A stretch of 36,850 bases of DNA. Source: a virus. Below are positions 6,840 through 35,921 of this stretch, piece after piece. The notes under the pieces were generated by a model. The model had not been told where the DNA came from and searched no databases. It was given only the letters and a program-made list of their open reading frames with translations. The DNA lies in IMG/VR virus record IMGVR_UViG_3300020457_001257, positions 1 to 36,850 of that record; one strand, written 5' to 3'. Both the position numbers and the translations under genes were made by a program. Each line of letters begins with the position of its first letter. Position 1 is the first letter of the stretch.

Positions 6840-6855
6840 ATATAGGATATAAATA
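6835..6855 (+). promoter_or_regulatory. Tandem T4-type late promoters (two TATAAATA copies)
   Basis: Two exact TATAAATA copies at 6835-6842 and 6848-6855, 13 bases apart start to start. The first overlaps the stop codon of the preceding gene. The second ends 9 bases before the ATG of the fibre gene at 6865. A double late promoter would fit a protein needed in many copies. Confidence 0.75.
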
Positions 6856-7811: not shown

Positions 7812-7819
7812 TATAAATA
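7812..7819 (+). promoter_or_regulatory. T4-type late promoter TATAAATA
   Basis: Exact TATAAATA in the 28-base gap before the gp8 gene, 12 bases before its ATG at 7832. Confidence 0.75.
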
Positions 7820-17406: not shown

Positions 17407-17968
17407 TATAGTCTGACCACCAACCTTGCCAACCTGGCTCTAATAGGTGATTCATTTGCCCTAGAGTACAGATACTAAACTCTTTTGGTGGCATTTTATA
17501 TAAATGATTTTTGATTGAAGGACAAACTTTGTCATAACAGTTATAATCTATTTCTCTATAGTAAAACTCATCACTACCTTTGTCGTATTTTTCTAAATAC
17601 ACATCTTCGTCTTCTTTAAACTTATCCCATATATGAGATACGTCTCCTTCCCAAGAAACGATAGTTGAGTTTAATGGTGTATGAGCTTCTTCTCTCCACC
17701 ATAAGTCATTTAATAATGTAAAATCTTTTCTGAATAAATCTGGTAACTCTTTCCATATAATAACATCTAAATCAAAATATAAGTTTCTACCATCACGAAA
17801 TTTATCGTACATCTGAAACTTATTGTACCAATTACCGTAAATATCATTTTCAATAACTTCAAAACTATCATATGATATACCAGAGTGAAAGTCTATCATA
17901 TATTTTAAGTTATCAACATGCCATTGAGTAAACTTATTACCAAATCTACAAGCTATTATTCTCCGCAT
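17381..17968 (-). CDS. Putative GT-A-type glycosyltransferase
   Basis: A 195-residue protein with the layout of small nucleotide-sugar transferases: an N-terminal beta start (MRRIIACRFG), then a hydrophobic strand ending in the metal-binding DxD at 66-68 (YFDLDVII), and a later NSTIVSWEG segment that would contact the acceptor. It is shorter than typical GT8-type enzymes. It is the last gene of the 14.7 kb island, overlaps the gene before it by 13 bases and overlaps the convergent plus-strand gene by 26 bases. The substrate cannot be told. Confidence 0.6.
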   Translation of the reverse strand: MRRIIACRFGNKFTQWHVDNLKYMIDFHSGISYDSFEVIENDIYGNWYNKFQMYDKFRDGRNLYFDLDVIIWKELPDLFRKDFTLLNDLWWREEAHTPLNSTIVSWEGDVSHIWDKFKEDEDVYLEKYDKGSDEFYYREIDYNCYDKVCPSIKNHLYKMPPKEFSICTLGQMNHLLEPGWQGWWSDYIIPHYKDQ

Positions 17969-18570
17969 TTTAACTCACCATTATCCATATATTTAATTTC
18001 TTTTATATCTGATATAATATCTATCATAGCCCATTGACCAGATTTTTTAATCTTTTGATATAACAAAGCAAAAGATTTCATATATTTTTCAGGACCAACA
18101 CCAGCAATTTCATAATCGCCACACATTGATAATACTATTTGTACATTATGACCTTGTTCAGCCCACCTTAAAGCAGAGTAGTCTAAAGTTTTCCAAACAC
18201 AACCTGATAAGTTTTGTCCTGCTAAAATTACGTTTTTAATTTCCCAACCTGCTTTCTTGGCTTCTTTTTTTATCCAAGCAATAGAGTTTAATGGATTATC
18301 TTTGTCGTAGTCTGCCCATTTATCAGGTAGTTCTAACCAACAATATCTATCTTTGACTTCATCTTTTAGTTCCATCATTCTAGTATGGGTACCACTTTCT
18401 TGAAAGTCTTCCGATAATATAACCATATCTTTTATAGGGTGTTCAAATATTAACTCTTTTAATTTACTGAAACGCAAATCATTTAACTCCTTTTCTCCTA
18501 GGAGTTGATTGCCTTCAAAATCAATTAAGATAACACCTGTTGCAGGCTTAAGTCGGTGTGGATGATACAT
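17956..18570 (-). CDS. Possible isochorismatase-like cysteine hydrolase
   Basis: A 204-residue alpha/beta protein. The segment NVILAGQNLSGCVWKTLDYS (about 113-132) followed by ALRWAEQGHNVQIVLSMC looks like the nucleophile region of isochorismatase-like hydrolases, with Cys124 as candidate nucleophile. Asp17 in VILIDFEG would be the catalytic Asp and Lys84 (LPDKW) a possible catalytic Lys. The match is weak and the family is diverse, so the activity is open. Its ATG overlaps the stop of the QueC-like gene (TAATG), suggesting the two act together. Confidence 0.45.
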   Translation of the reverse strand: MYHPHRLKPATGVILIDFEGNQLLGEKELNDLRFSKLKELIFEHPIKDMVILSEDFQESGTHTRMMELKDEVKDRYCWLELPDKWADYDKDNPLNSIAWIKKEAKKAGWEIKNVILAGQNLSGCVWKTLDYSALRWAEQGHNVQIVLSMCGDYEIAGVGPEKYMKSFALLYQKIKKSGQWAMIDIISDIKEIKYMDNGELKCGE

Positions 18571-19337
18571 TAATCCTCAAATGCCCAATCCTTCTCATTA
18601 CACCAAAAACATTCACCACATGTTTCTTCGGTTGTTGACCAAGCACATGATTTAGTTAATGGATATAAAGTCTCCATTAAATTGTGTTCTTTAAAAACAC
18701 CTGCCACAAATTTTTTATCTACTCTTAAATACGGTGCATAAGTGTGACCACCATCAGGCCAATTTTCTGTTAATTGTTTCTCGCCATTTCCTGGATCACG
18801 TTTTCTTTCTGCTACTTCATAAAATCCTCTTTCTTTTTGTACTTCTACTGGAGGATTAGTAGTCATAGCCGATATTGCAGGCGTACTATGTGTATTAGAC
18901 ATTTCTGATCTAGCGGCTCTGTTTTGCATAGCTTTGGAACAACCGTTTAATGTTCCCCAAGTTCTTACCATTTCTCCTGTCTTTTCATTCTTGATAAAAC
19001 CTCTTTTAGGATCGTTAAACATTTTCTTTGCTTTTTCCTGCCATACAGGATCAGATGTTTTAACTTCATAAACTTTTAAGTCTTGAACACTGTTAGGAAA
19101 AGTGTCTTGTAAAAATTTATGTACGTTTTTTGCTTTTTCTGTATCTATTCTACCGTCTTCATCACTCATATGAAAAGGGTAAATTTTCATTTCGGGTAGA
19201 TACTTACCGATTAAGTAAACTAATGAAGATGAATCGCAACCACCTGATAAAGACACCACTGCTTTTTCTGGTAGGCCTTCAGGAAAATTTTGTTCATCAA
19301 ATAAGTCAACTGTTTGATTACCATATGTAAACTTCAT
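18570..19337 (-). CDS. QueC-like PP-loop ATPase, copy 1
   Basis: A 255-residue PP-loop ATPase. The ATP-pyrophosphatase signature SLSGGCDSS is at 29-37. The C-terminus has Cys231, Cys240, Cys243 and Cys246 (CGECFWC, then EKDWAF), the zinc site arrangement of QueC, which turns a 7-deazaguanine carboxylate into the nitrile preQ0 using ATP and ammonia. The central AMTTNPPVE segment differs from QueC, and no other queuosine genes are visible, so the substrate may be another carboxylate. TAAAGGAG precedes the start at 19337. It follows a radical SAM gene at a distance of 10 bases and has a paralogue at 25680. Confidence 0.75.
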   Translation of the reverse strand: MKFTYGNQTVDLFDEQNFPEGLPEKAVVSLSGGCDSSSLVYLIGKYLPEMKIYPFHMSDEDGRIDTEKAKNVHKFLQDTFPNSVQDLKVYEVKTSDPVWQEKAKKMFNDPKRGFIKNEKTGEMVRTWGTLNGCSKAMQNRAARSEMSNTHSTPAISAMTTNPPVEVQKERGFYEVAERKRDPGNGEKQLTENWPDGGHTYAPYLRVDKKFVAGVFKEHNLMETLYPLTKSCAWSTTEETCGECFWCNEKDWAFED

Positions 19338-19347
19338 TTTTTCTCCT

Positions 19348-20634
19348 TTAATAGTTTGTTTCTCTCTTAGCTTTTAAATAATGTTCTTCTAACTCCGGAT
19401 GTAGAGCAAACAAATCGTGTCCTTCTCTTTTACTAAAACCATTTTTATCTAAATCTTGACAATAGTCAATAGTTTTAATAAATTCTTCTACATCTTGTTC
19501 TTTGTTTAATGACTCAAGAATATTAGGATAATCCTTATATAGTGGTTTAAGTTTTTCCTTAATTTCTTTAGGCAAATTCTTTACTTGTAATATTCTCGGG
19601 TGTTCAATGATATAAAATGTATGTGCTATACCCATATCTTTTAACATCGCAATTAATTTATGATTTTCTAATACAGATAAGAAAGATATTACAGAGTGAA
19701 CATTAACTCTTGCATTTTTTCTTGATCTCATTAATTTCATATTTTCTACAAGTTGATTCCAATCAGATTTCTTTCTGATATAATCATTATATTTACCATA
19801 ACTGTCTATAGATATTTTCATAACAAACTCTTTGAAGTGAGGAAAATAATCTCTAAAGTTATAACCGTCCATATCAAATACAGATAAATTTGTTTTGTAT
19901 ATTAGGTCTATACCTTTTGAGTAACCTGTTGCTACTAATTTGTCTAATAGTTTATAATGATTTACCATAACTAAAGGTTCGCCACCAATTAGTTTGATTG
20001 ATCTAGTATACTTTGCTACAGAGGCAATATCATCCAAATACTTTTCATCATCATGTTTCATAGTATTCATTCTTTCGCCATCTTTAGGATCCAAATCTGG
20101 ATCGTATACTTTTTTTAATTTTTTTAGTGAGATAGTTCTAGTGTTAGCACTTCTTGGTGTACACATATAACAATCTAGATTACAAGCATTACCAAACATT
20201 TTCATTTTGATGTCTAGTATTCTTTCGTCAAAATCTTTTATATCTCCTTCGTCTATAAATTTCTGAACAGCCCTTAATAACTCTGGAACCTTACTATCAA
20301 ATGTACCTTTTAATATTTGTTCACTATATTTCATTCTATCTGAACGACCATACTTTTGTTCTTGTTTCCAACAACCTGTACAATGGTGTCTAAAAAATTT
20401 AGGATCCCAATCCTCTTTTAACATTTCTTTTCTTAATCTGTTTTGATATTCGGAAGTATACCATTCTTTAATAGATGTATCTTCCATATTGTGGCCAGTT
20501 CTTGCTAGTGCGTCATAACAAGGCGCAAATCTACCACTTAAACTAGAAAATATGTGTGTGAAAGGTAGAGGACAGAACCATAATTTTTTATCCTTTAACT
20601 TTTGTTCAAATTCTTTTTTCTGTTCTTCATTCAT
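19348..20634 (-). CDS. Radical SAM protein with N-terminal Cys-rich domain
   Basis: A 428-residue radical SAM enzyme. The [4Fe-4S]-binding CxxxCxxC is CNLDCYMC at 151-158, followed by the SAM-contacting IKLIGGEPL near 214-222. An extra set of cysteines precedes it (Cys21, Cys39, Cys85, Cys88: PLPFTHIFSSLSGRFAPC, HHCTGCW), resembling half of a SPASM/twitch domain placed before the barrel. The start at 20634 lies 6 bases after a GATAAATA late-type motif, with no Shine-Dalgarno sequence. The next gene downstream is the QueC-like ATPase, a pairing repeated in reverse order at 24832-26414. Substrate unknown. Confidence 0.85.
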   Translation of the reverse strand: MNEEQKKEFEQKLKDKKLWFCPLPFTHIFSSLSGRFAPCYDALARTGHNMEDTSIKEWYTSEYQNRLRKEMLKEDWDPKFFRHHCTGCWKQEQKYGRSDRMKYSEQILKGTFDSKVPELLRAVQKFIDEGDIKDFDERILDIKMKMFGNACNLDCYMCTPRSANTRTISLKKLKKVYDPDLDPKDGERMNTMKHDDEKYLDDIASVAKYTRSIKLIGGEPLVMVNHYKLLDKLVATGYSKGIDLIYKTNLSVFDMDGYNFRDYFPHFKEFVMKISIDSYGKYNDYIRKKSDWNQLVENMKLMRSRKNARVNVHSVISFLSVLENHKLIAMLKDMGIAHTFYIIEHPRILQVKNLPKEIKEKLKPLYKDYPNILESLNKEQDVEEFIKTIDYCQDLDKNGFSKREGHDLFALHPELEEHYLKAKRETNY

Positions 20635-20635
20635 G

Positions 20636-21415
20636 CTAACTATTTATCCATATCTTATAAAGCGGACTATCAGGTAGATTGTGTATAGCACGATTCGGAC
20701 CTGTGTAGTGGACAACCTTTAATTTCTCATTAGGTTCATCTAACAACATAAAGTCTGTATTAAATTTTTTTGCATACATCTTATTCAGATTTATCATATC
20801 TTTGGCATTTTCTGTATACTTACCTAACCATTCTTGTGGTGTATTAGTAAGTTTACTTTTCTTTTCAAAGATTTTCCAATCAACATAGTTTTGTTCGCCA
20901 TAATATTTAAAGTGTACCTTACCTATATTGTAATAGTGTAATTGCCAATATTCAGGATTAAGTGCAAAGTCGTCCCATATATGCTTGAATTGTCCAGATT
21001 TAAATTTATAAAATCCACCATTTAAAGGTAATATATTATTATCTTTTAATCTGTTAGTGTGTAATCTTTCATTCCAAAATACACCATACGATACTAACTC
21101 ATCATCGCCAACAGGATGACCTATAAGTTCATCTACATTACCTACTATAACTTGATCTATATCCATTATGATAATCTCATCGCCTGGATTTTGACCACCA
21201 AATAAAGGACTAAAGTATTTTAGTTTGTGCCAGTGTTTTACGACATTACTATGATGATTATATGGTAATACTATATCGGCCTTTACGTTAGGGTCGTCAC
21301 TTAAACAAATAGATTGAAAAGGTATTGTACTATTTCTTTTCAGTCCATCATAGAAGTTGGCAACATAGTCTGGTGTATACATGCCTTTGAAATACACCGT
21401 ACATATTTTAAGCAT
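20636..21415 (-). CDS. GT-A-type glycosyltransferase
   Basis: A 259-residue protein with an N-terminal KICTVYFKGMYTPDYVANF start, a SICLSDDP strand and a DxD motif at 85-87 (IIIMDIDQVI), then LPLNGGFYKFKSG, where an acceptor-binding loop is expected, and a C-terminal VVHYTGPNRAIH that fits the metal-binding His of GT8-like enzymes. It overlaps the preceding glycosyltransferase gene by 8 bases. Sugar donor and acceptor are unknown; the position among sugar genes suggests decoration of a glycan or virion component. Confidence 0.7.
   Translation of the reverse strand: MLKICTVYFKGMYTPDYVANFYDGLKRNSTIPFQSICLSDDPNVKADIVLPYNHHSNVVKHWHKLKYFSPLFGGQNPGDEIIIMDIDQVIVGNVDELIGHPVGDDELVSYGVFWNERLHTNRLKDNNILPLNGGFYKFKSGQFKHIWDDFALNPEYWQLHYYNIGKVHFKYYGEQNYVDWKIFEKKSKLTNTPQEWLGKYTENAKDMINLNKMYAKKFNTDFMLLDEPNEKLKVVHYTGPNRAIHNLPDSPLYKIWINS
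20641..20648 (-). promoter_or_regulatory. Late-promoter-like motif GATAAATA inside the island
   Basis: Minus-strand GATAAATA ends 6 bases before the ATG of the radical SAM gene at 20634. One mismatch to TATAAATA. It lies in the end of the upstream glycosyltransferase gene. Confidence 0.45.
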
Positions 21416-22292
21416 TTATATTTCTCCAGATAATATCAAACTTTTTATTAATAGCGTGTATAAGTTTAGCTGTTTTAGGAATAAATCCTTGTGTATCAAA
21501 GAAATAATGCCAATCATCTTGCAACCAATGTACTGGTACATTATTTTCTTTTAGTTTAACAGCAAATATTGTTTCGTTGTCATAACCAAAGTATTTTGCT
21601 ATTTTCATAGGAAAGAAATCATCTTGTCCTATTAAACTTGTCATAAGGTCTAAAGTTTGTTTAAAATCTGTAAAATAATCTAATTTTTTTAAGTGTTCTC
21701 TATTGATACCTACTATACCTGTATTGATAACATCATTTTTAGGACTTAAACCTTTTTCTATTAACATTGCCTGAGCGTTATAAAATTTTGAGTTTGGACT
21801 TCTTATTGTTTGTGTTCTTTCGCCTATCTTATGAATAGGGCTTACTCTTTCGTTATTGTTCTTAACGGCCACACCTTTTGATAAGTCAAATACTTCAAAA
21901 AAGTTTTCTGTTGTGTTAGGTACAACATCAAAGTCTAGATATAACACCTCGTCATAGTCTTTAGCAAATTCATATAGTAAATGTATCTTAAAAAAGTTAA
22001 CTATGTTATAACTTGTAATTTCTGGATAAAACTTTCTCATCCATTTGTAATAATCAACATAACTAGTATTTAAACCAGCACACTTTGTATCATTTTCTAC
22101 CATAGTAAAATCTACACCTATTTTTTTGGCATATTCTACTTTACAATCTACTAACTGTTGGTAGTTCTTTTCAAATTCGTTTTTAGTATTATAGTTTGTA
22201 AACTCGGCATCCTTTTTCTTGATATGCTCGTCAAACGTATCTAATTCTTCTTTTGGAATATTAATGTATAAACTAAATATTTTTCTTTTCAC
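21408..22292 (-). CDS. GT-A-type glycosyltransferase
   Basis: A 294-residue protein. After a charged N-terminal part, residues 95-127 (NFFKIHLLYEFAKDYDEVLY then LDFDVVPNTTENFF) contain the DxD at 120-122 typical of metal-dependent GT-A enzymes, and VINTGIVGINREH (near 188) fits the following conserved loop. It overlaps the methyltransferase gene upstream by 20 bases and the next glycosyltransferase downstream by 8, so the three are surely co-transcribed. Donor and acceptor are unknown. Confidence 0.72.
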   Translation of the reverse strand: MKRKIFSLYINIPKEELDTFDEHIKKKDAEFTNYNTKNEFEKNYQQLVDCKVEYAKKIGVDFTMVENDTKCAGLNTSYVDYYKWMRKFYPEITSYNIVNFFKIHLLYEFAKDYDEVLYLDFDVVPNTTENFFEVFDLSKGVAVKNNNERVSPIHKIGERTQTIRSPNSKFYNAQAMLIEKGLSPKNDVINTGIVGINREHLKKLDYFTDFKQTLDLMTSLIGQDDFFPMKIAKYFGYDNETIFAVKLKENNVPVHWLQDDWHYFFDTQGFIPKTAKLIHAINKKFDIIWRNINA

Positions 22293-22944
22293 GTTTCGCC
22301 TCTTCCCATGACATAATTGGATCAGGAGTACCTTCCATTTTTCCTACTATTATAAATCTTGTACCTCTGTAATCTGTAACCTTTTCCTCTGATAATACAG
22401 TTGCATTACTAGGTAATTGCTTTTTAAAATCTTCTATTGTCTCTACACAATTAATATGGCCTTCAATATCATACATGTTGTTAGATGTAAAAGCAAAGTG
22501 TGTTGGCGATGTTCTTCCCCACCAAGGATTTTTCATTATTGGTGCTGGTCCCCATTCTTTCATGGGTTTCATATGTTCGCAAGAAGTATTAATAAACAAA
22601 TCAACACCGTCATATTGATCTCTATATTTTTCAAATACATCACCTGTAATCCAATCTATATTCCAATCTTTAAATATTCTATACTTTGATCTACTAATTA
22701 CTTGTGCGTCTGTATCAACACAAACTATTTGTTTTACTTTGTGATAAAATGCCGGTATTAAAATACTACCATACCAACTACCAAATATAACTACTTTTGA
22801 ATCTTTATTTAAGAAATCTAATTTATTTACAGCGTCAACAAGTTTTAGTTTAGTGTTGAATTGATTAGGACTTAACGAATCTAATAGGTCGTCATTCTCC
22901 CTAATTTCTGCCATTAAATTTCTTAATATTTCTAAATCAATCAT
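22273..22944 (-). CDS. SAM-dependent methyltransferase-like protein
   Basis: A 223-residue class I methyltransferase-like protein. Motif I is VVIFGSWYGS at 51-60, followed by the acidic end of strand 2 (VCVDTDAQ, near 74) and ITGDVF (near 98), the usual SAM-binding order. The VDLFINTSCEHM segment matches motif IV. The glycine motif is not perfect, so a nucleotide- or SAM-binding role without methylation is possible. It overlaps the carbamoyltransferase gene by 8 bases. The target is unknown. Confidence 0.65.
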   Translation of the reverse strand: MIDLEILRNLMAEIRENDDLLDSLSPNQFNTKLKLVDAVNKLDFLNKDSKVVIFGSWYGSILIPAFYHKVKQIVCVDTDAQVISRSKYRIFKDWNIDWITGDVFEKYRDQYDGVDLFINTSCEHMKPMKEWGPAPIMKNPWWGRTSPTHFAFTSNNMYDIEGHINCVETIEDFKKQLPSNATVLSEEKVTDYRGTRFIIVGKMEGTPDPIMSWEEAKREKKNI

Positions 22945-24463
22945 TTTTTCTATATATGTAATCGTTAATAACTAATATATCCAATGCAGTTCTTTTAAAA
23001 GTTCTCATTGCATTTTCTGGTGTTTCTACTATAGGCTCTTGACAGTTAAAACTTGTATTAAGTACCATAGGTACGCCAGTGATAACACCAAACTCTCTTA
23101 TTAGTTCATAAAATTTATTATTATCTTCTTTGTTTACTGTTTGTATTCTTGCAGTACCATCAACGTGAGTAATACCTGGTACTACTTTCTTTTTATCTTC
23201 TTTAACAGGACAAATTCTTGACATATAAGGACTAGGCAAAGTTGTATCAAAATATTCCTTATAATGTTCTTCTAAAACTGCTGGTGCAAAAGGTCTAAAG
23301 TCTTCTCTCATTTTTATTGTACTGTTAATAATATCTTTTATATCTGGATTTCTAGGATCGGCTAATATACTTCTATTACCTAATGCTCTATTACCACTTT
23401 CTGATTTACCTTGAAACCAACCTACTATCATACCATCGGCAATTGCTTGTGCAATCTCTTTGTATGAAGTTAATTTTTCTCCACCTTTATGGTCATATGA
23501 TAAGCCAGCATATACGTTAGACTTATGTACTTTATTGTTTATTGTATATTCAGCATGTTGATAAGTACCAATAGCTTGGCCTTCGTCACCAATTGCAGGT
23601 GGAACAAATACATTATCCCATTTTTTGGTAAACATTTCATTACAGTAACCGTTATATGCAACACCACCAGCTAGACATAAGTTATCGGAAGTTTTTAAAG
23701 GATATACATGTTCCTTAATTCTTTCCATAGTTATTTCTTGTAGTGTATATGCCAAGTCATCTATACCATGTTTTGCAATTTGTATTTGTTTCCATTCTGG
23801 ATATTTTCTTTCTAAAATAGGTCCTTCTAAAATTTGTGTAAGTACATTGTAATAATAATCACTATGTTTACCATAACCAACTTTACCCATAAGTTTACTT
23901 GCACCTAATGTTCCAAATCCTGTTAAGTTAGACATGTGGTTCCATAACCAACCGATAGGAAGTTTTGCTGATAAATCTGTTGCGTTGCCGTCTCTGTCAA
24001 AGAATAAACATCTATATCTTGAGCCAATACCATCTATCGCAAGTATATCACTTTGTTTGTAGCCGGAGTTTAAAAATGCATATGTAGCATGTGATTGATG
24101 ATGGTCAATATAATAAATGTCATCTTTATAATATCTTTGCCATAATGTTTTAACTTCATAATCTAAAATTTCATCATGACCTTTAAATATTGTATTAAAT
24201 AATTCTTCTTTAGATTTTCTGATACCACCATAGGTATAAGTCCATGCAAAGACAGTATCAGGTTCTTTCTTAACATAATCATTTACAAATTCATCATTTA
24301 AAGTATAATCACCAGGATTTAATATATCTGATTGGTGGTTATAAGCTTCTGCTTTATATGGCAAGTTATGTTTGAATCTGGTGTGTCTTTCTCTCTGATT
24401 ATGATAAACACCGTCATAGGTGTTGTGGTCATGTAAGTTTATAGCAACAGCGTTAATTTTCAC
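22937..24463 (-). CDS. NodU/CmcH-type O-carbamoyltransferase
   Basis: A 508-residue carbamoyltransferase. The N-terminal Kae1-like metal site is seen as HHQSHATYAF (121-130), followed by ILAIDGIGSR and LAGGVAYNGYCN. The C-terminal YrdC-like half has GNRALGNRSILADPRNP and VLNTSFNCQEPIVETP, both typical of the family. Such enzymes move a carbamoyl group from carbamoyl phosphate through a carbamoyl-adenylate to a hydroxyl of a sugar or natural product. Translation begins at a GTG 7 bases after AAGGAG. The acceptor could be a sugar made in this island or a modified base; the sequence does not decide. Confidence 0.9.
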   Translation of the reverse strand: MKINAVAINLHDHNTYDGVYHNQRERHTRFKHNLPYKAEAYNHQSDILNPGDYTLNDEFVNDYVKKEPDTVFAWTYTYGGIRKSKEELFNTIFKGHDEILDYEVKTLWQRYYKDDIYYIDHHQSHATYAFLNSGYKQSDILAIDGIGSRYRCLFFDRDGNATDLSAKLPIGWLWNHMSNLTGFGTLGASKLMGKVGYGKHSDYYYNVLTQILEGPILERKYPEWKQIQIAKHGIDDLAYTLQEITMERIKEHVYPLKTSDNLCLAGGVAYNGYCNEMFTKKWDNVFVPPAIGDEGQAIGTYQHAEYTINNKVHKSNVYAGLSYDHKGGEKLTSYKEIAQAIADGMIVGWFQGKSESGNRALGNRSILADPRNPDIKDIINSTIKMREDFRPFAPAVLEEHYKEYFDTTLPSPYMSRICPVKEDKKKVVPGITHVDGTARIQTVNKEDNNKFYELIREFGVITGVPMVLNTSFNCQEPIVETPENAMRTFKRTALDILVINDYIYRKND

Positions 24464-24480
24464 TTCTTTTCTCCTTCAGT

Positions 24481-24488
24481 TATTTATT
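24481..24488 (-). promoter_or_regulatory. Late-promoter-like motif AATAAATA
   Basis: Minus-strand AATAAATA, overlapping the stop codon of the DUF59 gene and followed after about 6 bases by the AAGGAG ribosome-binding site of the carbamoyltransferase. One mismatch to the late consensus. Confidence 0.35.
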
Positions 24489-24828
24489 ATAGTCCTAATA
24501 AACCTCTTATCTCTGGATCAATCATGTCTCTTGTCCATTGAGGCGTCATCGTGACTCTTACATTGCATTTTAGTCCTGGAATACTTTCAATATTCATCTT
24601 TACATTATTTACTATTTGGTCTGCCGCCGGACAAAAGGCAGACGTTAAACTCATTAAAACAAAAACATGTCTTGCTTCTGTCACTTTAACATCATAGATT
24701 AAACCAAGTGTGTATATATCTGTAGAGATTTCAGGATCGTAAACTTGTTTTAACTGTTCCTTAATCTTTTCAATATATTCTAACCTAGTCTCTTGATGAT
24801 CTTGTATATCGCTTAAATCTTCTTTCAT
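24487..24828 (-). CDS. DUF59/MIP18-family Fe-S assembly protein (SufT-like)
   Basis: A 113-residue protein of the DUF59 (MIP18/PaaD/SufT) family: a helical N-terminus, VYDPEISTDIYTLGLIYDV (29-47) with the signature DPE and GLIYDV, and a conserved cysteine at 66 in SAFCPAAD, then MTPQWTRDMI. Family members help load [4Fe-4S] clusters into apo-proteins. Here it lies 3 bases downstream of a radical SAM gene in an island with several such enzymes, so a role in their maturation is a natural inference. It is small for a fusion-free member and looks complete. Confidence 0.85.
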   Translation of the reverse strand: MKEDLSDIQDHQETRLEYIEKIKEQLKQVYDPEISTDIYTLGLIYDVKVTEARHVFVLMSLTSAFCPAADQIVNNVKMNIESIPGLKCNVRVTMTPQWTRDMIDPEIRGLLGL

Positions 24829-24831
24829 AAT

Positions 24832-25671
24832 TTATACATTTAATATATTACTATATTTTTCTATAGGAAAATGTCCTTTCGGTTGTACATATTCTTTGCA
24901 AGTCACACAATACTTTTCGTATTTAAATAATTGAAAATTCATCATCTTATCAATATTTTCTTTTGTCATAGGAAAAGACCTAGACAATTCAATGTTGTTT
25001 GCAAATTTTTTACTACAGTGTACTATATGCCTTTTTTCAAAGTCAATAACAGGCACCATAGGAAAAGCGGCACACATTTTACGGTCTATTTCAGCCGCTT
25101 GTTCGTGTACTGCTGTCACATCACCCTTTGTTGGTGTTCTACCATTGAACGCCTTAAACATGGTGTTTTTGTGATCTAATTTCTTTTGAAATTCTGGATA
25201 GTTCTCTACGTACTTAAAGTAGTTAGGTGTTTTAAGTACTACATTATAATTGTTCATTTCGTTTGGTCCGAAATAATCAAAGTTACCTAGTTTTTTAATT
25301 TCTTTAGGATAAAAATCTAATGTTAAGTGTTCTACATATAAGATTTCTGGATCCTCTAGTATTTCAGGATATCTTTTTCTTACGAAAGAGTTAGATAATA
25401 CTGAACATATAAAATTAGGATATTCTTTTATCATTGCTATCACTTCACGTAGATTTTTAATTAAACCTGGTTCACCACCTAGTAAACATATTCTGACTTT
25501 ATATTTACTTAATGCGTTTAATGTTTCTCTTAAAAAATCTAAATCTACTGTTAAGTTTCTCATTTCTAAAGTATAACTTGTGCAGTAGTGACAGTCTTTA
25601 TTACAAGACATTGATAAAAAGAAGTCTATCGCTAAATAATTTTTTTGTACGTATGTTAAATCAAACTTCAT
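24832..25671 (-). CDS. Radical SAM protein
   Basis: A 279-residue radical SAM enzyme. The cluster-binding motif CNKDCHYC is at 23-30, and RICLLGGEPG (near 67) gives the SAM-contacting GGEP. Later cysteines (HCSKKF, then YCVTCKEY near the C-terminus) may hold a second cluster. A start at 25689 would add six residues. I prefer 25671 because the AATAAATA motif at 25677-25684 lies exactly 5 bases before it, the same geometry as other late genes here, and it would overlap the longer start. It lies downstream of QueC-like copy 2 and 3 bases before the DUF59 gene. Substrate unknown. Confidence 0.82.
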   Translation of the reverse strand: MKFDLTYVQKNYLAIDFFLSMSCNKDCHYCTSYTLEMRNLTVDLDFLRETLNALSKYKVRICLLGGEPGLIKNLREVIAMIKEYPNFICSVLSNSFVRKRYPEILEDPEILYVEHLTLDFYPKEIKKLGNFDYFGPNEMNNYNVVLKTPNYFKYVENYPEFQKKLDHKNTMFKAFNGRTPTKGDVTAVHEQAAEIDRKMCAAFPMVPVIDFEKRHIVHCSKKFANNIELSRSFPMTKENIDKMMNFQLFKYEKYCVTCKEYVQPKGHFPIEKYSNILNV

Positions 25672-25676
25672 GCTAC

Positions 25677-25684
25677 TATTTATT
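25677..25684 (-). promoter_or_regulatory. Late-promoter-like motif AATAAATA
   Basis: Minus-strand AATAAATA, 5 bases before the ATG at 25671. It overlaps the stop codon of the QueC-like gene. One mismatch to TATAAATA, but with the exact spacing seen at the strong late promoters. Confidence 0.5.
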
Positions 25685-26414
25685 CCCATTTTAAATCAAA
25701 TGCCCAGGCTTTCTCAAAACACCAAAAGCACTCGTGACATTCTTGCGAATAGTTATCAGTCATTTCCTCATCGCCTACACATGAACGTGTAAGTGGAAAT
25801 AAACTATCCATTAAATCATTTTCTTTAAAAACAGCTGCGACAAACTTTTTGTCCACATTGGCAAATGGGAGATAGGATCTCCGGGGGCCCCTGGTGTTTC
25901 TCTGTTTGTCATTCTGGTTTCTCCTGGTTTCCGCCATATGAAACATTATAGGGTGTTTTTTCATATCTTCTATTGGTGGATTTCTAGTCATACCGTTTAT
26001 CATATATGCGTTAGGATATCTGTTTCTTAATTCGTCTCTTACTGTTGATAACTGTAAAGACTTTGATACTTGTTGTGCTGTCATTGTAGAAAAACTTGGA
26101 TCGTTTTTGATAGCTTCTTCAGCGGCTGGATATAACGCTTCGTTTCTATCATCATAATTTCTTTTTATTAAATCTTGTATATTCTGACTAGGAAATTTAT
26201 CTTGCATAAACTTTACAATCTTTTCGGCTGCCTGTATGTCATATGGATTATATACGTCTTGACAACTGTAAGATATAACTTCTACGTTAGGAAAGTGTTT
26301 GCATATCAAAAACATTACAGCGGCTGAGTCTGTACCACCTGATAATGATATTACGACTTGTTCTACTGGAAATTTAAAAAAATCAATTGTCTTGTCATTA
26401 TAAGTTATTTGCAT
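25680..26414 (-). CDS. QueC-like PP-loop ATPase, copy 2
   Basis: A 244-residue paralogue of the ATPase at 18570. PP-loop SLSGGTDS at 23-30. Central GMTRNPPIE matches AMTTNPPVE of copy 1. C-terminal zinc-type cysteines Cys212, Cys226, Cys229 and Cys232 (CHECFWC) are followed by EKAWAF. Both copies share VDKKFVA.VFKE and an LFPLTRSC-type segment. An unusual GC-rich patch near 25880-25930 encodes an Arg/Asn/Gln-rich loop absent from copy 1. The start overlaps the stop of the nitroreductase-like gene (TAATG) with a weak AGAG site. It probably activates a carboxylate as an adenylate; the substrate is unknown. Confidence 0.75.
   Translation of the reverse strand: MQITYNDKTIDFFKFPVEQVVISLSGGTDSAAVMFLICKHFPNVEVISYSCQDVYNPYDIQAAEKIVKFMQDKFPSQNIQDLIKRNYDDRNEALYPAAEEAIKNDPSFSTMTAQQVSKSLQLSTVRDELRNRYPNAYMINGMTRNPPIEDMKKHPIMFHMAETRRNQNDKQRNTRGPRRSYLPFANVDKKFVAAVFKENDLMDSLFPLTRSCVGDEEMTDNYSQECHECFWCFEKAWAFDLKWE
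25876..25932 (-). repeat. GC-rich patch with short AGAAACCAG-like repeats
   Basis: Within QueC-like copy 2, an imperfect short repeat (GAAACCAGG, AGAAACCAG, GAGAAACACCAGG on the minus strand) runs into the palindrome GGGGCCCC near 25884-25891. This is the most GC-rich spot I notice in very AT-rich DNA. It encodes a loop rich in Arg, Asn and Gln that the paralogue lacks. Confidence 0.5.
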
Positions 26415-27220
26415 TATTTCTCTTTTAGTTTATCCTCAAAAAAATCTCCATCTTTTTCTCCAGGTATATGTAAATCTAACCATTTCTTTTTAGTCAAATC
26501 TTCTGGTTCAGGATCATTATCTTCGTTTGTCACAACCCAATTAACAACCTTTTCATAATCTGGTTTAGGGTCTAAATGTGTTTGTTTAGTTCTTTCCATA
26601 AACTGCCATCTAAAATATTTACCAACACCTGTTGACATTATAATATGTGGCTCTTGATCTACATATGGTATATGTTTCCAATATTTTTTAAACTGTTTAG
26701 GAAAACAAGAAGTAAAAGATACATCTAAACCTTTTTCACAAAGTAAACCTGTTAATGTAGCACAGAATAATCCACACTCAAATGAAATTAATGTGTTTAT
26801 TACTTCTAACTTTTCCTCAAATTCTTGTTCCGGATGATGACTATCTTCATCAATGGCCATTTTATTAAATTCGTTTGATTCACTAACTCTAGATGTAAAT
26901 ATAAAAACATATGGTGCTGTTATTATATGTTGATAGTTTCTATTTACTGTATGTTTAGAATGGTCTAGATAACCGTCAGCCATTGCGTCATCTTCAACTT
27001 TATGGTGGTTTTTAATTGCTTGTTTCCATATTCTTTCTTTTTCTGCCTGATCTCCTGGACCGATAACGTTTACTCTGTAAGGCATATATTGTTGTTTAGA
27101 AGGAGTTAATTGCCATGCCTTCTTTAAACACTCGTTTACTGTTTCTTTAGATGGTATATTTTTATCATCATATACCCAAACGTGTTTTCGTTTTTTAAAT
27201 ATGTCGTATACTTTATCCAT
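26414..27220 (-). CDS. Nitroreductase-fold protein, copy A
   Basis: A 268-residue protein with the layout of FMN-dependent nitroreductases: FKKRKHVWVYDD near residue 8 (the family RRSxRxF start), LKKAWQLTPSKQQYMPYRV at 32-50 (the PSxxNxQPW-like segment), and a GLFCATLTGLLCEKGLDVSF helix and turn near 150-170 where the family has the second FMN-contacting helix. A C-terminal stretch of acidic residues follows. It is a close tandem paralogue of the gene at 27213, overlapping it by 8 bases. The two could form a heterodimer, since this family works as dimers. Substrate unknown. Confidence 0.68.
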   Translation of the reverse strand: MDKVYDIFKKRKHVWVYDDKNIPSKETVNECLKKAWQLTPSKQQYMPYRVNVIGPGDQAEKERIWKQAIKNHHKVEDDAMADGYLDHSKHTVNRNYQHIITAPYVFIFTSRVSESNEFNKMAIDEDSHHPEQEFEEKLEVINTLISFECGLFCATLTGLLCEKGLDVSFTSCFPKQFKKYWKHIPYVDQEPHIIMSTGVGKYFRWQFMERTKQTHLDPKPDYEKVVNWVVTNEDNDPEPEDLTKKKWLDLHIPGEKDGDFFEDKLKEK

Positions 27221-28046
27221 TTACATTCTCATATGGTGATTCACCTTTGCCGTCTATTGCTAATTGTACTCGTCTTTTTAATTCAGTTCTATTTTTGTCT
27301 GTAGTACCTGGTGAATCTTTAACCCAATTTATTATATCTTCAAATTCTGCTTTTTTATCCATATCCCAATTACTTCTTCCGTTTTCTATATCAGGACCGT
27401 TTTCTTGCATCCATTGTTTTTTATAATACTTGCCATAACCTATAGAACATGTTAATAGTGGTATAGTGTTAACAAAAGGTACATCATGCCACTTATCTAC
27501 ATTTTTTGGAAAACAAGTTGTATATGTTATATCAATACCTTGTTCTACTAATATACCTGTTAGTGAAGCTGCAAATAATCCAACTTCTATACTTGTTGCT
27601 TGTGCCAATGTTTCGTGTTGGTCTGAAAACTCTGGTTCACTAAAGTGACCGTCTTCAGCAATACATTTTTTATTCCAGTCATTTGTTTTTTCTGGATCAA
27701 CAGTTCTAGATGTAAATACTATTACATATGGAGCGTCTGATAAATGTTGATATGTTCTATTGACTTTAAATTTTGTTTCTTTTAATTGTTTCTTTTCATG
27801 GGCTCTTATTTCTACATCATGGTGGTTAATCATTGCTTTGTCCCATACTTTTAGTTTTTCATCGTCAAATTCTTTTCCTGGTCCTAATATGTTTACTGAA
27901 TATGGGTAATAATTTTGTTTTGATGGTGTACAATGCCAGGCATGCCATAATGCGTCTGTAATTGTTTCTTTATTTGGTATCTTATCTTTATGATATTCTA
28001 TTACGTGTTTTCTTTTTTTAAATATTTCGTATGTTTGAGTACTCAT
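27213..28046 (-). CDS. Nitroreductase-fold protein, copy B
   Basis: A 277-residue paralogue of the neighbouring gene. Shared features are the FKKRKHVIEYHKDKIP start, HAWHCTPSKQNYYPYSV (about 36-51), NILGPGKEF, VNRTYQHLSDAPYVIVFTSR, and GLFAASLTGILVEQGIDITY followed by a TCFPK segment. These mark the FMN-binding nitroreductase fold, used by reductases, dehydrogenases and oxidases. Compared with copy A, the C-terminal part is longer and differs. It overlaps the SGNH gene by ATGA. Duplication followed by divergence is clear; which residues remain catalytic cannot be decided by eye. Confidence 0.68.
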   Translation of the reverse strand: MSTQTYEIFKKRKHVIEYHKDKIPNKETITDALWHAWHCTPSKQNYYPYSVNILGPGKEFDDEKLKVWDKAMINHHDVEIRAHEKKQLKETKFKVNRTYQHLSDAPYVIVFTSRTVDPEKTNDWNKKCIAEDGHFSEPEFSDQHETLAQATSIEVGLFAASLTGILVEQGIDITYTTCFPKNVDKWHDVPFVNTIPLLTCSIGYGKYYKKQWMQENGPDIENGRSNWDMDKKAEFEDIINWVKDSPGTTDKNRTELKRRVQLAIDGKGESPYENVNG

Positions 28047-28822
28047 GTTATCTCCTTCCTTAAAAAGTCTGCTATTGCCTGGTGTCCTTTTGCGTTAGGG
28101 TGGTCATCAAATTTACTTACAACTAAACCATTTTGTATTTGTTTTTCTACTGTATTGCCTAATACCTTTTGATGTATATTAAATCCTTTATTGTGAGATT
28201 CTTGTAAACCAGGCCAACCTATAAAATTATTTATTTTATCCTTATAGTATTCAAATCGGCCGTAAATTCTTTGTGTGTCACTTTCTATATTGCCTTTGTA
28301 TATCATATAACCATCAACATCTAATTGATCCTCTGTAGGTTTTAAACCTTTAACATATCCTTCAAATAAATCACCCATTTGAAAATGCCAATAAGGCAAT
28401 TTGTATCTTTCACATATTCTTTGAAAACTTATTTGATATCTTAACGTTTGAGTTACCCAATATAATATATCTCCATCATGTTGTACTCTACGTGATCTCC
28501 ATGTTTGCCATTGACCTTTTTCATAATTTACTCTAGGACCTTTTACAATACCTGATTGCCAATCTTGTCTCATTGCTTGAGTCCAACCTGCTATGACCAT
28601 ACCTATATCTTCTTTATTGGTTATATCTTCTATTTGATCTAATATTGTGCTATAGATAAATTTATTACCTTGACCACCTTTTGCAACACAAATTAATTCC
28701 ATACCTAGATAGTCTGCTAAAATTTCAGGCCATTTTGGCCATGAAAAGTCCCATGTAGGGTGACAGATTGATTCAAAACTTAAATCTGTACAACTATCTC
28801 CACTAACTATTAATTTTTTCAT
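28043..28822 (-). CDS. SGNH/GDSL-type hydrolase
   Basis: A 259-residue protein of the SGNH hydrolase superfamily. Block I is IVSGDSCTDL with the nucleophile Ser10, the glycine block is KGGQGN near 48-53, and the C-terminal block is FDDHPNAKGHQAIADF (238-253), giving the catalytic Asp and His. Members remove or transfer acyl groups, commonly acetyl, on sugars. It shares the ATGA overlap with the nitroreductase gene downstream and a 20-base overlap with the unknown gene upstream. Acting on the product of the island, such as a deacetylation step, is possible but unproven. Confidence 0.75.
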   Translation of the reverse strand: MKKLIVSGDSCTDLSFESICHPTWDFSWPKWPEILADYLGMELICVAKGGQGNKFIYSTILDQIEDITNKEDIGMVIAGWTQAMRQDWQSGIVKGPRVNYEKGQWQTWRSRRVQHDGDILYWVTQTLRYQISFQRICERYKLPYWHFQMGDLFEGYVKGLKPTEDQLDVDGYMIYKGNIESDTQRIYGRFEYYKDKINNFIGWPGLQESHNKGFNIHQKVLGNTVEKQIQNGLVVSKFDDHPNAKGHQAIADFLRKEIT

Positions 28823-29111
28823 AAAATAATTTGTTAAATGCTATTTTTAATTTTTGTTTTGGTTCTTCTTTAAAGTTTAAAGGTCCGTAATCATATTCAG
28901 GCATTAAGTAAGTTTTCTCTACAATATACTCATACACCGGTTCATGTTCTTTATCAATTAATGTTTCGTCAAAGATGTCACTAGTACCTAATGCTCTTTT
29001 CATCATCTGACAAGTCTTAATAAGATTTTGATCTGCTATAGGAACAGGATTGCCTTTACTGTCTATATAACTAACTTGATCTAATTTTTCGTTTGCTATT
29101 ATTTCAATCAT
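28803..29111 (-). CDS. Unknown protein, 102 aa
   Basis: A 102-residue acidic protein with no recognised domain. The start overlaps the aminotransferase stop as ATGA and the end overlaps the SGNH gene by 20 bases, so it is a genuine member of the operon. It has an N-terminal beta-like part (MIEIIANEKLDQVSYIDSKG) and a helical C-terminus. A role as a small partner of a neighbour is possible. No membrane segment or signal peptide. Confidence 0.6.
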   Translation of the reverse strand: MIEIIANEKLDQVSYIDSKGNPVPIADQNLIKTCQMMKRALGTSDIFDETLIDKEHEPVYEYIVEKTYLMPEYDYGPLNFKEEPKQKLKIAFNKLFYEKINS

Positions 29112-30178
29112 AGATTATTTAATATACCATTACAAGTATCTTTTATCTCCTCATCTGTTAACCATGGATGTATAGGTAAAGTTAATATAGTTTTACTGAC
29201 ATATTTGGCATTTTTACAATTGTCACTTCTATGTTCTATATTTTTATACATAGGTCTTTCTGAAATAGGTTTTTCATAATGAACACCAGCACCTATCTTA
29301 CCTTTTATTCTATCTCTTGCCTCACCAGATTCAACTGGATCGCCTTCATCAAATCTTATAATATATTTGTGATACGTATGATTAAGACCATTGGTTGGTT
29401 TATGTACATACACATAGCCGTCTAATAGTTCATCATATTTTTTTGCTATGGCTTGTTTCGCCTCAATATACTGATTTAATTTCTTTAGTCTGTAATCAAT
29501 AAACTTTGCATTAAAGAATAACATTTTAGAATTGTATCCTAGTATCTCGTGGTTACCATGTTTTCTTAATTTGATACACATATCAGCGTGATCTTTGTTG
29601 TCTGTTAATACCACGCCACCTCCGGCGATTCCACCTATCGTTTTATTAGCATTGAAACTTATTGTACTAAATTCTCCTAGTGTACCTGCTTTAATGCCAT
29701 TAAGACTAGAGCCTATGGCTTGAGCTGCGTCTTCTACAAAAGCAATGTTTTTCTCTTTACAAAATTTTAATATCTCTGTCACATCTGACATACTACCAAA
29801 TAAATGTGGATAGACAATTGCTTTTACTTTGTCTGAATACATACGTTTGATACTGTCAAGTGTTATATGGAAAGTATATGGGTCTATATCACAAAATACT
29901 GGTTTTGCACCTACCATAGATATACAAGACGCTGTTGATATCCATGAGAAGTTGGTCGTTAGTACTTCATCACCTTGTTTTATACCTAAACACTTTAAAG
30001 AAAACATTAAAGCGTCTGTACCGTTTTGACATGCAACGGCATATTTTCTAGGTACTATATTTTTGATTGTTTTTTCCAGAAACTCTATGTTTTGTTCCTG
30101 GTTTTCTTTCATACATTCATCAAAGAGTTTTAGATAGTTCTCTTTGTCAACTTCATATTCATATTTCCATGCGTCCAT
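29108..30178 (-). CDS. DegT/DnrJ/EryC1-type PLP aminotransferase
   Basis: A 356-residue aminotransferase of the sugar-aminotransferase family. The PLP-binding lysine is Lys179 in SFNANKTIGG, with the preceding VEDAAQAIG (148-156) giving the Asp that contacts the PLP ring, and NGTDALMFSLK (52-62) giving the phosphate-binding segment. Such enzymes convert keto sugars on nucleotides to amino sugars. Together with the epimerase at 16164 it suggests that the phage makes a modified amino sugar. Its start shares a base with the stop of the SPASM-like gene (TAATG). Length and motifs look complete. Confidence 0.88.
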   Translation of the reverse strand: MDAWKYEYEVDKENYLKLFDECMKENQEQNIEFLEKTIKNIVPRKYAVACQNGTDALMFSLKCLGIKQGDEVLTTNFSWISTASCISMVGAKPVFCDIDPYTFHITLDSIKRMYSDKVKAIVYPHLFGSMSDVTEILKFCKEKNIAFVEDAAQAIGSSLNGIKAGTLGEFSTISFNANKTIGGIAGGGVVLTDNKDHADMCIKLRKHGNHEILGYNSKMLFFNAKFIDYRLKKLNQYIEAKQAIAKKYDELLDGYVYVHKPTNGLNHTYHKYIIRFDEGDPVESGEARDRIKGKIGAGVHYEKPISERPMYKNIEHRSDNCKNAKYVSKTILTLPIHPWLTDEEIKDTCNGILNNL

Positions 30179-30552
30179 TATTTTACATCCTTTGCTACTT
30201 CTTTACCTTTTTCATAATAAGTTTCAACTTTTATATTATCTTCTTTGCCTCTTGCTTTACAATGAAACAAACAAGTTTGATTAATCCTATTTAGGTTGTC
30301 TCCTACGTCTCTAGCCTGGACTAGGTCATCTTCAAATTCTTTCCATTCCTTTGTATCAAGTATCTCATCTATACTATTATAATCTTCTAACTTACTAACT
30401 TTATAAAGTGGTTTATACAATTCAGCCTTTGTTGTTTTAGGGTGGTCACACCAACAACAAGGTATTAAATGACCTCTATTATCTATTGCCAATGGCATAG
30501 GTTGAAAATCTTTATTATCTGGATCAGGTAAACATTTAGGTTTTAGTTTCAT
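30178..30552 (-). CDS. Stand-alone SPASM-like Fe-S domain protein
   Basis: A 124-residue protein with a cysteine pattern typical of the extra cluster domain of radical SAM enzymes: Cys7, then RGHLIPCCWC (Cys32, Cys33, Cys35), a SIDEILDTKEWKEF helix like those found between cysteines of SPASM domains, and Cys94 and Cys98 (QTCLFHC). It has no CxxxCxxC radical SAM motif of its own. It overlaps the radical SAM gene just upstream by ATGA, so it looks like the C-terminal part of one enzyme encoded as a separate chain. Whether the split is natural or due to an old frameshift is open. Confidence 0.6.
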   Translation of the reverse strand: MKLKPKCLPDPDNKDFQPMPLAIDNRGHLIPCCWCDHPKTTKAELYKPLYKVSKLEDYNSIDEILDTKEWKEFEDDLVQARDVGDNLNRINQTCLFHCKARGKEDNIKVETYYEKGKEVAKDVK

Positions 30553-31184
30553 CTTTCAGTACCTTTGTATACAGCCGCTTTTGATTTTAACGAGTTAGTT
30601 GGTTTAAAAGGATCGTCATCACTTAACCACCTTGATGATTCTATTTGTATAAAACTTAATCCTTCATCTTCGGCCATTTTCTTTGCAGTCTCTATATCAT
30701 TTTCATTATATTTAAATCTTATATATTGCCATACAGGTGTACTTAATAAATGTTTCTTGGCCTCTTTCATTATTTCAAACATTTTCTCCCCATCTTGGTT
30801 TTTCCTGTACTTGTGGCTATCTTTCGGTAAACCGTCACAAGCAAAAATCCAAACTGCTTTAGGATTTGCCTTAAATGATTTTACATACCACGACATTGGT
30901 TTAGCCGTAGCCGCATTATGAACAAACACCTCTGGTACATCTTTTAGTTCTTTCATTATCTCATTAAATTTAGGGTGATGTACAGGATCAGATAATTGAC
31001 CACAAAATCCTATATCTACAAAATGTTTTGCAATCATTTTTATTTCTTTCATAGTTAAATCACGGCCATGTGGTACTAAACCATAATTAGTAAATGATGT
31101 TTGCCTTTGACAATTAGGACATTCAAGTGGACACCTGTGTGTCACATCTAGATTTAATCTACGTCTTTGTTTAAAGTATGTCAT
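30549..31184 (-). CDS. Radical SAM protein, short core only
   Basis: A 211-residue radical SAM protein. CPLECPNC at 18-25 is the cluster motif (LDVTHRCPLECPNCQRQ). The rest is a shortened barrel: LTMKEIKMIAKHF, FCGQLSDPVHHPKF, where the GGEP segment is replaced by CGQLSDP, and FIQIESSRW. It lacks a C-terminal auxiliary-cluster domain, which is encoded by the overlapping next gene (30178). Similar short proteins are found among phage radical SAM genes, but the substrate is unknown. It starts 14 bases inside the end of the gene at 31171. Confidence 0.78.
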   Translation of the reverse strand: MTYFKQRRRLNLDVTHRCPLECPNCQRQTSFTNYGLVPHGRDLTMKEIKMIAKHFVDIGFCGQLSDPVHHPKFNEIMKELKDVPEVFVHNAATAKPMSWYVKSFKANPKAVWIFACDGLPKDSHKYRKNQDGEKMFEIMKEAKKHLLSTPVWQYIRFKYNENDIETAKKMAEDEGLSFIQIESSRWLSDDDPFKPTNSLKSKAAVYKGTER

Positions 31185-32040
31185 TCATTGCCTTTATAAT
31201 AACTTCTATATTTGGTTTATTAACAGGATCAGTAAGACAGTATGCCGGTCTTTTATAGTAAACTGGTCCTGCGTCTTTAATATTTTTATCTCTTGCATAT
31301 ATGAAATTCATTCCAAAGAAACGACACTCTTGCATTAATCTTGGTGCCGGATCAAATGTGTGTTTAGTATAAACGTAAGTATCAAACATACCTAATAAAT
31401 TCTTTACAGGTACAAATACATGATTTAAATTATGATCTATGTACTTATCTTTGTATGCCAAGATACCATGATTTTGGTATTTGTGAATATGTTTTTTTAG
31501 TTCAGTATAATAACTTTCGTTTGTACCTAAAAATAGATATTTAAACTTAACGTCTCTGATTATAGGTTTATATACACTGTAATTAATAATCTTTTCAAAT
31601 TGTCTACCAACACCATTGGCATAAACTTCATGGTCGCATAAGTCAATTACTTTTTCTGGTTTAAAAAATTCTAGTGCTAAAGGATATTCTTTTGGGTGGT
31701 TTTCTGAATATACTGATATAAGAGGTTTCTTAAATAACAAACGTAAAGTCAATTGTGTATCTTTATCATAATCTTTAATACTCTTGTATGCCAGAGTTAT
31801 CATACTTCTACCCATAATTAAATTTACATCAGCTTCTTCATAATCAAAATACACATGTTTGAAATGTATATACTTTTCTGTTAAAGCCTCTATGTAAGTT
31901 TCTTTTTTAAACTTGTAGTGTGGTATGATTATAAGATTAGCATTGATACCTAAATCATTTAAATATTGTACTTGCTCAAAGCTATAATGCATTAAGCCAT
32001 CACCTGGTTTAGAAGTCACTATTACGTTTAATCTGGTCAT
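31171..32040 (-). CDS. Putative GT-B-type glycosyltransferase
   Basis: The first gene of the island, 289 residues. It resembles GT4-type glycosyltransferases: an N-terminal Rossmann-like start (LNVIVTSKPGDGLMHYSFEQ), a VKFKYLFLGTNESYY strand typical of the second domain and a near-C-terminal PRLMQECRFFGMNFIYA segment where the nucleotide-sugar site of GT-B enzymes lies. The usual ExxxxxE pattern is not perfect, so the assignment is moderate. The start at 32040 lies directly after a sigma70-like promoter, so its mRNA may be nearly leaderless. It overlaps the radical SAM gene by 14 bases. Confidence 0.5.
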   Translation of the reverse strand: MTRLNVIVTSKPGDGLMHYSFEQVQYLNDLGINANLIIIPHYKFKKETYIEALTEKYIHFKHVYFDYEEADVNLIMGRSMITLAYKSIKDYDKDTQLTLRLLFKKPLISVYSENHPKEYPLALEFFKPEKVIDLCDHEVYANGVGRQFEKIINYSVYKPIIRDVKFKYLFLGTNESYYTELKKHIHKYQNHGILAYKDKYIDHNLNHVFVPVKNLLGMFDTYVYTKHTFDPAPRLMQECRFFGMNFIYARDKNIKDAGPVYYKRPAYCLTDPVNKPNIEVIIKAMNDIL

Positions 32041-35691: not shown

Positions 35692-35696
35692 TGAGT

Positions 35697-35702
35697 CTCC
35701 TT
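35697..35702 (-). promoter_or_regulatory. Ribosome-binding site of btuB under riboswitch control
   Basis: AAGGAG, 5 bases before the ATG and only 8 bases after the closing stem of the riboswitch. The close spacing suggests that ligand binding controls access of ribosomes rather than termination. Confidence 0.6.
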
Positions 35703-35710
35703 GCTCGTTT

Positions 35711-35795
35711 ACTGCCTAGGTGGCATTCGGAGTATAACCGTATCAAGTAATCTGAACGAATTGCACGTCACTTTCCCACTACGCTTTTAGGCAGT
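35711..35795 (-). ncRNA. Cobalamin riboswitch (compact AdoCbl-variant-like)
   Basis: Read on the minus strand, an 85-base element closed by ACTGCCTA (35788-35795) pairing with TAGGCAGT (35711-35718). Inside, in the order of cobalamin riboswitches, are GTGGGAA (35773-35779), the hairpin GACG-TGCAATT-CGTT (35756-35770), the ACGGTTA core, and CCGAATGCCACC (35719-35730), the counterpart of the CCGAAGACCTGCC end of the E. coli btuB switch. It lacks the peripheral arm of full-size members, like the small variants found in marine DNA. It directly precedes btuB. Confidence 0.82.
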
Positions 35796-35803
35796 TATGT
35801 TAT

Positions 35804-35868
35804 GGCCGGAGTCTACACTATGGGTGGAAATACTCCTAGCCGGCCACTAGGTTTCCTACGTGTAGACT
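35804..35868 (-). ncRNA. Structured pseudoknot RNA element in the btuB leader
   Basis: On the minus strand AGTCTACAC (35860-35868) pairs with GTGTAGACT (35810-35818). Inside, GGAAA can pair with TTTCC and CCTAG with CTAGG, leaving a 7-base loop TGGCCGG. The loop GGCCGG is complementary to CCGGCC (35804-35809), which directly follows the outer stem, giving a pseudoknot. The element begins one base after the predicted transcription start and precedes the riboswitch. I do not recognise the class; it could be a second sensor, a ribozyme or a protective 5' structure. Confidence 0.6.
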
Positions 35869-35875
35869 ATATTAT

Positions 35876-35904
35876 ATAGTATCACATTTAATCCAAAATG
35901 GCAA
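35876..35904 (-). promoter_or_regulatory. Sigma70-like promoter of btuB
   Basis: Minus-strand TTGCCA (35899-35904) and TACTAT (35876-35881) with a 17-base spacer; a TATAAT follows at 35871-35876. Initiation is expected near 35869, which is where the structured leader begins. This is a host-type promoter, so early expression is likely. Confidence 0.65.
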
Positions 35905-35913
35905 CTTTCCGAA

Positions 35914-35921
35914 TATAAATA
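35914..35921 (+). promoter_or_regulatory. T4-type late promoter TATAAATA
   Basis: Exact TATAAATA, 5 bases before the ATG at 35927, and back to back with the sigma70-like promoter of btuB. Confidence 0.75.

Follow-up and report, generated by a model that had tools for sequence, protein, structure and literature searches.

A predicted stable hairpin at the start of a marine phage B12-transporter message, so far found in one phage lineage

The message for a B12 transporter (btuB) of a phage, marine to judge by its relatives, is predicted to begin with a stable hairpin that has so far been found in one phage lineage only. The window, i.e. the whole stretch of 36,850 nucleotides analysed here, is a virus record (IMG/VR IMGVR_UViG_3300020457_001257), and the hairpin lies at 35804–35868, ahead of a cobalamin riboswitch. 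It is a real element, an orphan and lineage-specific structured RNA as judged by sequence and computation. The reading that we tentatively prefer, as plausible rather than probable, is that a 77-nt insertion gave the btuB mRNA a passive 5'-terminal hairpin that protects the message while leaving the riboswitch free to fold. Few studies have dealt with B12 riboswitches carried by phages. In the present case, a structured 5' module was added to a phage riboswitch leader, and the P1 helix of the riboswitch appears to have been altered so as to prevent joint misfolding; if confirmed, this would be a natural and testable case of modular RNA leader assembly and insulation. The features concerned, in window coordinates, are the following:

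35876–35904, minus strand: predicted btuB promoter, by consensus match only (-35-like TTGCCA 35904–35899, 17-nt spacer, extended -10 TACTAT 35881–35876)
35868–35870, minus strand: predicted +1 (A35870 or A35868) from promoter spacing, 0–2 nt ahead of the outer stem
35793–35869, minus strand: 77-nt lineage-specific insertion in place of 3 nt of relative L013 (blastn breakpoints 35870/35792)
35860–35868, minus strand: outer stem, 5' arm AGUCUACAC (sequence and predicted fold)
35852–35856, minus strand: middle stem, 5' arm GGAAA, partner UUUCC 35826–35830 (predicted fold)
35847–35851, minus strand: apical stem, 5' arm CCUAG, partner CUAGG 35835–35839 (predicted fold)
35840–35845, minus strand: apical loop GGCCGG, candidate pseudoknot strand (sequence)
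35835–35839, minus strand: apical stem, 3' arm CUAGG (predicted fold)
35826–35830, minus strand: middle stem, 3' arm UUUCC (predicted fold)
35810–35818, minus strand: outer stem, 3' arm GUGUAGACU (sequence and predicted fold)
35804–35809, minus strand: tail CCGGCC, candidate pseudoknot partner, abutting the outer stem (sequence)
35713–35793, minus strand: aptamer of an AdoCbl-II (class-II, env8-like) cobalamin riboswitch (full-length match to Rfam RF01689, 71.7 bits)
35788–35795, minus strand: riboswitch P1, 5' arm ACUGCCUA (relatives AUGGCCUA), partner UAGGCAGU (leader comparison, folding)
35711–35718, minus strand: riboswitch P1, 3' arm UAGGCAGU (relatives UAGGCCAU; L013 group UAGGUCAU) (leader comparison, folding)
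35693–35706, minus strand: expression-platform hairpin GAGCAAGGAGACUC, whose loop carries the ribosome-binding site (env8 P13) (sequence; role from PMC10907184)
34084–35691, minus strand: btuB-like gene for a TonB-dependent receptor of 535 aa, coordinates including the stop codon (Plug domain PF07715 by Pfam, E 2.7e-18)

Read from 35868 to 35804 on the minus strand, the element consists of AGUCUACAC, GUA, GGAAA, CCUAG, U, GGCCGG, CUAGG, AGUA, UUUCC, ACCCAUA, GUGUAGACU and CCGGCC. A first-pass annotation had described a nested hairpin with stems of 9, 5 and 5 bp, whose apical GGCCGG is complementary to the CCGGCC 3' of the outer stem; both the stems and the 6-nt complementarity are exact at these positions. 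It had also made the predicted start of btuB transcription the beginning of the element, and promoter spacing indeed puts the presumed +1 at about 35868–35870, at the element's first base. The MFE is -22.8 kcal/mol; the z-score is -2.5 for the minus strand and -0.8 for the plus strand, so that the fold favours a btuB-sense transcript. That such GC-rich pairing is not due to chance was confirmed by shuffling. None of the 223 dinucleotide shuffles of the whole window contained a stem of at least 7 bp whose 6-nt partner, no more than 2 nt away, was all G/C; a stem of at least 9 bp with a partner containing at least 5 G/C was likewise absent (0/223). When the 65-mer alone was shuffled 20,000 times, just 2 shuffles reached even a relaxed form of the architecture.

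Related leaders were gathered by searches with BtuB, the riboswitch core and the neighbouring 116-aa protein. Four of them (L013, L018, L019 and L022) carry the same btuB promoter, followed by a few bases and then by riboswitch P1, without the element, and the other env8-type leaders examined lack it likewise. Some relatives have another leader or no riboswitch ahead of btuB, and others have different genes there. The first-pass annotation had looked to homologous leaders for conserved pairing; the element is missing from them altogether and is thus a lineage-specific insertion, not a conserved leader domain. Identical copies occur only in the window, in two IMG/VR contigs (L001/L036 and L002/L037) and in a phage contig within a MAG bin (L055). 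The flanks of these copies are 99.1–99.9 % identical, and since they differ by just 0.1–0.9 % the unchanged 65 nt are uninformative on selection; nor is there any covariation to score, because all copies are the same. The occurrence in several separate assemblies speaks against an assembly artefact. L055 is contig NZZP01000034.1 of the Gammaproteobacteria MAG NAT245, and its positions 1–1104 match the window's leader region at 99.7 % over 1.1 kb; as phage sequence inside a bacterial bin, this is a possible but weak hint at the host.

The element had been called unrecognised, which agrees with Rfam: searched to E = 10, positions 35804–35868 gave nothing except a 14-nt MS2-operator fragment (E 5.3), and at gathering and permissive thresholds the riboswitch was the sole significant match. 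The hope of finding homologues with compensatory base changes was disappointed, as no diverged homologue emerged from the phage, viral and bacterial sequences searched. Exact searches with the apical core yielded only identical copies or chance-level matches; an Acidimicrobiia contig (L056) with the 17-nt apical core was rejected, the rest of the element being entirely missing from it. When the middle stem was kept and the apex left free, none of 65 other matches combined a 5-bp apical stem with a long outer stem, and an outer-arm search gave, among the matches listed, no other contig with an all-G/C loop-tail match and only weak model matches. A covariance model of the element, run against the relatives, whole viral records and 274 genomes of the MAG's class, likewise returned identical copies or chance-level matches only, the four best genome matches being discarded as they lie inside open frames and have no exact GGCCGG/CCGGCC pair. 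INPHARED and PLSDB contain no match to the element, no second copy was found in the window or in the relatives' records, and a literature search retrieved nothing on a pseudoknot upstream of a phage cobalamin riboswitch.

The neighbouring riboswitch is a full member of its class, scoring 71.7 bits against the AdoCbl-II covariance model (gathering threshold 36.5) over model positions 1–81 of 81. In riboswitches of the env8 kind, the ribosome-binding site sits in the P13 loop and is concealed through kissing with L5 once B12 is bound (PMC10907184). The likeness of the leader to this class (RF01689) resides in the neighbour at 35713–35793 with its RBS-bearing P13 hairpin, whereas the element falls outside the aptamer and is missing from the related riboswitch leaders examined. 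The earlier statement that it directly precedes the riboswitch stands if a spacer of about 8–10 nt is allowed for (match 35713–35793; P1 helix from 35795). Among more distant phage btuB homologues, L020 and L026 show by eye a different and larger cobalamin riboswitch some 50–250 bases ahead of btuB, and the phage btuB genes of L016 and L017 show none by eye. The type of riboswitch thus seems to have been exchanged or lost among related phage btuB genes.

Within the riboswitch, near relatives have P1 as AUGGCCUA/UAGGCCAU (the L013 group with UAGGUCAU) and the lineage with the element has it as ACUGCCUA/UAGGCAGU, so that two pairs are altered on both sides, with pairing kept. The leader was folded with all 16 Watson-Crick combinations at these two pairs, in a calculation that omits pseudoknots. 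The relatives' P1 reached a computed probability of 0.98 without the element but of only 0.265 (~0.27) with it, the lowest of the 16 variants, compared with 0.77–0.98 for the remaining 15 in the presence of the element. The predicted collapse arises because the CGGCCA of the element's tail pairs with UGGCC. Of all the findings, this computed result argues most strongly that the element and the riboswitch are parts of one transcript and that their fold is of consequence. However, P1 changed in one evolutionary event only, and this could be a coincidence, have another cause or stem from the same recombination or insertion. In the 181-nt leader, element and riboswitch are predicted to be separate folding modules. 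When the btuB coding start is added, the 5' arm of the outer stem re-pairs with btuB codons in the predicted fold, which would open the stem; this re-pairing is probably fortuitous, because the coding segment is also present in L013, which lacks the element.

How might such a module act? The insertion would have supplied the btuB mRNA with a self-contained 5'-terminal hairpin, which a pseudoknot between loop and tail may close. A 9-bp stem located 0–2 nt from the 5' triphosphate would shield this end from pyrophosphohydrolase and from 5'-end-dependent ribonucleases, and a longer-lived btuB message could result. The downstream riboswitch would fold as before and control translation, its P1 having been altered in step to avoid pairing with the GGCC of the element's tail. 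With the element, pairing at the 5' end begins at about nt 1–4 in the predicted ensemble, whereas two element-free relatives that were folded have mostly unpaired 5' ends of about 6 nt (L013) and 15 nt (L022). RppH action and 5'-dependent decay by RNase E are impeded by 5'-terminal secondary structure and need an accessible single-stranded 5' end (reviewed in PMC3997798); a 5' stem should therefore prolong the life of the mRNA. The first-pass annotation had offered three roles, a second ligand sensor, a self-cleaving ribozyme and a stabilising 5' cap structure, and it is the last that fits best, the fit being one of position and structure. Protective stem-loops of the ompA-leader kind resemble the element in having a stem 0–2 nt from the (here predicted) 5' end and a structure that impedes RppH and RNase E (PMC3997798). 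They differ in that the element has three stacked stems and possibly a pseudoknot, belongs to a phage mRNA and sits before a riboswitch. Indeed, three stems, an exact loop-tail complement and one-sided bulges exceed what a plain protective hairpin needs, which counts against the protective reading. It also presupposes decay of the RppH/RNase E type, and the decay enzymes of the phage's host may differ.

The loop-tail pseudoknot itself is a possible feature. Opening of loop and tail is computed to cost 2.8 kcal/mol and the 6-bp loop-tail helix to contribute -11.6. Pseudoknot initiation usually carries a penalty of about 7–10 kcal/mol, so that the expected gain is marginal. Moreover, since no linker separates stem and tail, the CCAUA bulge would have to let the 12-bp upper arm double back against the 9-bp outer stem. 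In the exonuclease-resistant xrRNAs of plant viruses and flaviviruses, the loop of a hairpin base-pairs with nucleotides 3' of the basal stem. A comparable candidate pairing between loop and 3' sequence is present in the element, which has no sequence or Rfam match to xrRNAs. According to a passage in PMC8826918 citing the work, the xrRNA of red clover necrotic mosaic virus halts bacterial RNase J1 in vitro. Unlike xrRNAs, the element is at the very 5' end of its message and has no RNA ahead of it that could be trimmed. Should the pseudoknot also stop 5' nucleases, an xrRNA-like device would exist in a phage. That a new pseudoknotted regulatory domain, either sensor or exonuclease-blocking, stands here in tandem with a B12 riboswitch whose P1 re-evolved to stay orthogonal seems improbable to us.

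The main rival of the protective reading is that the insertion is near-neutral, mere hairpin debris or a small mobile palindrome tolerated as the riboswitch still folds. Its restriction to a single lineage, with relatives lacking it and all copies coming from closely related genomes (flanks 99.1–99.9 % identical), is what one would expect of such an insertion. Nevertheless we consider it unlikely, as the inner stems and the all-G/C loop-tail match are intact, the P1 change runs in the direction that restores folding, and neither a target-site duplication nor other copies were seen. The element could instead be a binding site for a phage or host regulator over the start site, acting as an RNA hairpin or as a DNA operator with a 9-bp inverted repeat. 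A perfect inverted repeat, AGTCTACAC/GTGTAGACT, does run from the predicted +1, and GTCTACAC..GTGTAGAC pairs occur in other viral contigs too, among the matches listed. These contigs lack the all-G/C loop-tail match and their model matches are weak, a second copy is absent from the window and the relatives' records, and inner stems are superfluous for a DNA operator; we regard a protein site as decidedly unlikely, though ahead of the pseudoknotted regulatory domain. Two unrelated viral contigs, L250 (about 3800–3870) and L179 (about 2239–2313), contain clustered GTGTAGAC/GTCTACAC repeats resembling the outer arms, without a G/C loop-tail match.

A tandem second aptamer, in which a compact pseudoknotted RNA senses another ligand and provides two-input control together with the cobalamin riboswitch, ranks below both of these. 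The compact nested stem with its possible loop-tail pseudoknot, some 10 nt upstream of the riboswitch, and an architecture beyond chance in shuffles would suit it. However, riboswitch classes are normally widespread, many leaders sharing the same pairing and a conserved pocket, and recurrence would be expected; in the phage, viral and bacterial sequences searched, no other gene is preceded by a homologue of the element, which is missing from relatives and has no Rfam match to E = 10. Since no homologue exists elsewhere in these sequences, there is no sign of a conserved ligand pocket. Nor does the element have an expression platform of its own: no terminator was found, and the RBS lies downstream in the riboswitch's own platform. 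The suggested second sensor has thus received no positive evidence, such as relatives with conserved loops or covariation, and the same is true of the self-cleaving ribozyme, HDV-like or of another pseudoknotted type, that would trim the leader. A nested pseudoknot has the same succession of strands (outer stem, loop, outer stem, tail), and an HDV-like helix order is seen on the reverse strand. Yet no ribozyme core was recognised, and no HDV or other ribozyme family matched to E = 10 on either strand. The L3 and J4/2 (catalytic C) segments of HDV have no proper counterpart on the plus strand, where a single C is left for J4/2 and L3 is unmatched; moreover, no plus-strand transcript is indicated, the element lying upstream of a late-type promoter (TATAAATA, 35914–35921). 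A ribozyme is hence highly improbable. Barely credible is a degenerate tandem copy of the riboswitch. The two share short words (GGCCATA, ACTCCG..GCCA, CGTAG..GAAA), but their alignment is not clearly above shuffles, 56 of 1000 of which reach its score in the most favourable setting, and there is no second AdoCbl-II match to E = 10; this candidate was rejected.

The T4-type late-promoter octamer TATAAATA occurs in the window on the plus strand only, in 7 copies, a count not above chance. Four of the seven (1948–1955, 6848–6855, 7812–7819 and 35914–35921, all plus strand) lie 5–12 bases ahead of plus-strand start codons, whereas the minus-strand btuB has a sigma-70-like promoter instead. Elsewhere in the window, the minus strand carries at 17381–32040 a long block of probable small-molecule or surface-biosynthesis genes that adjoins the structural genes. 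Pfam identifies a carbamoyltransferase and an Fe-S assembly protein in this block, and other products look radical-SAM-like or aminotransferase-like by eye.
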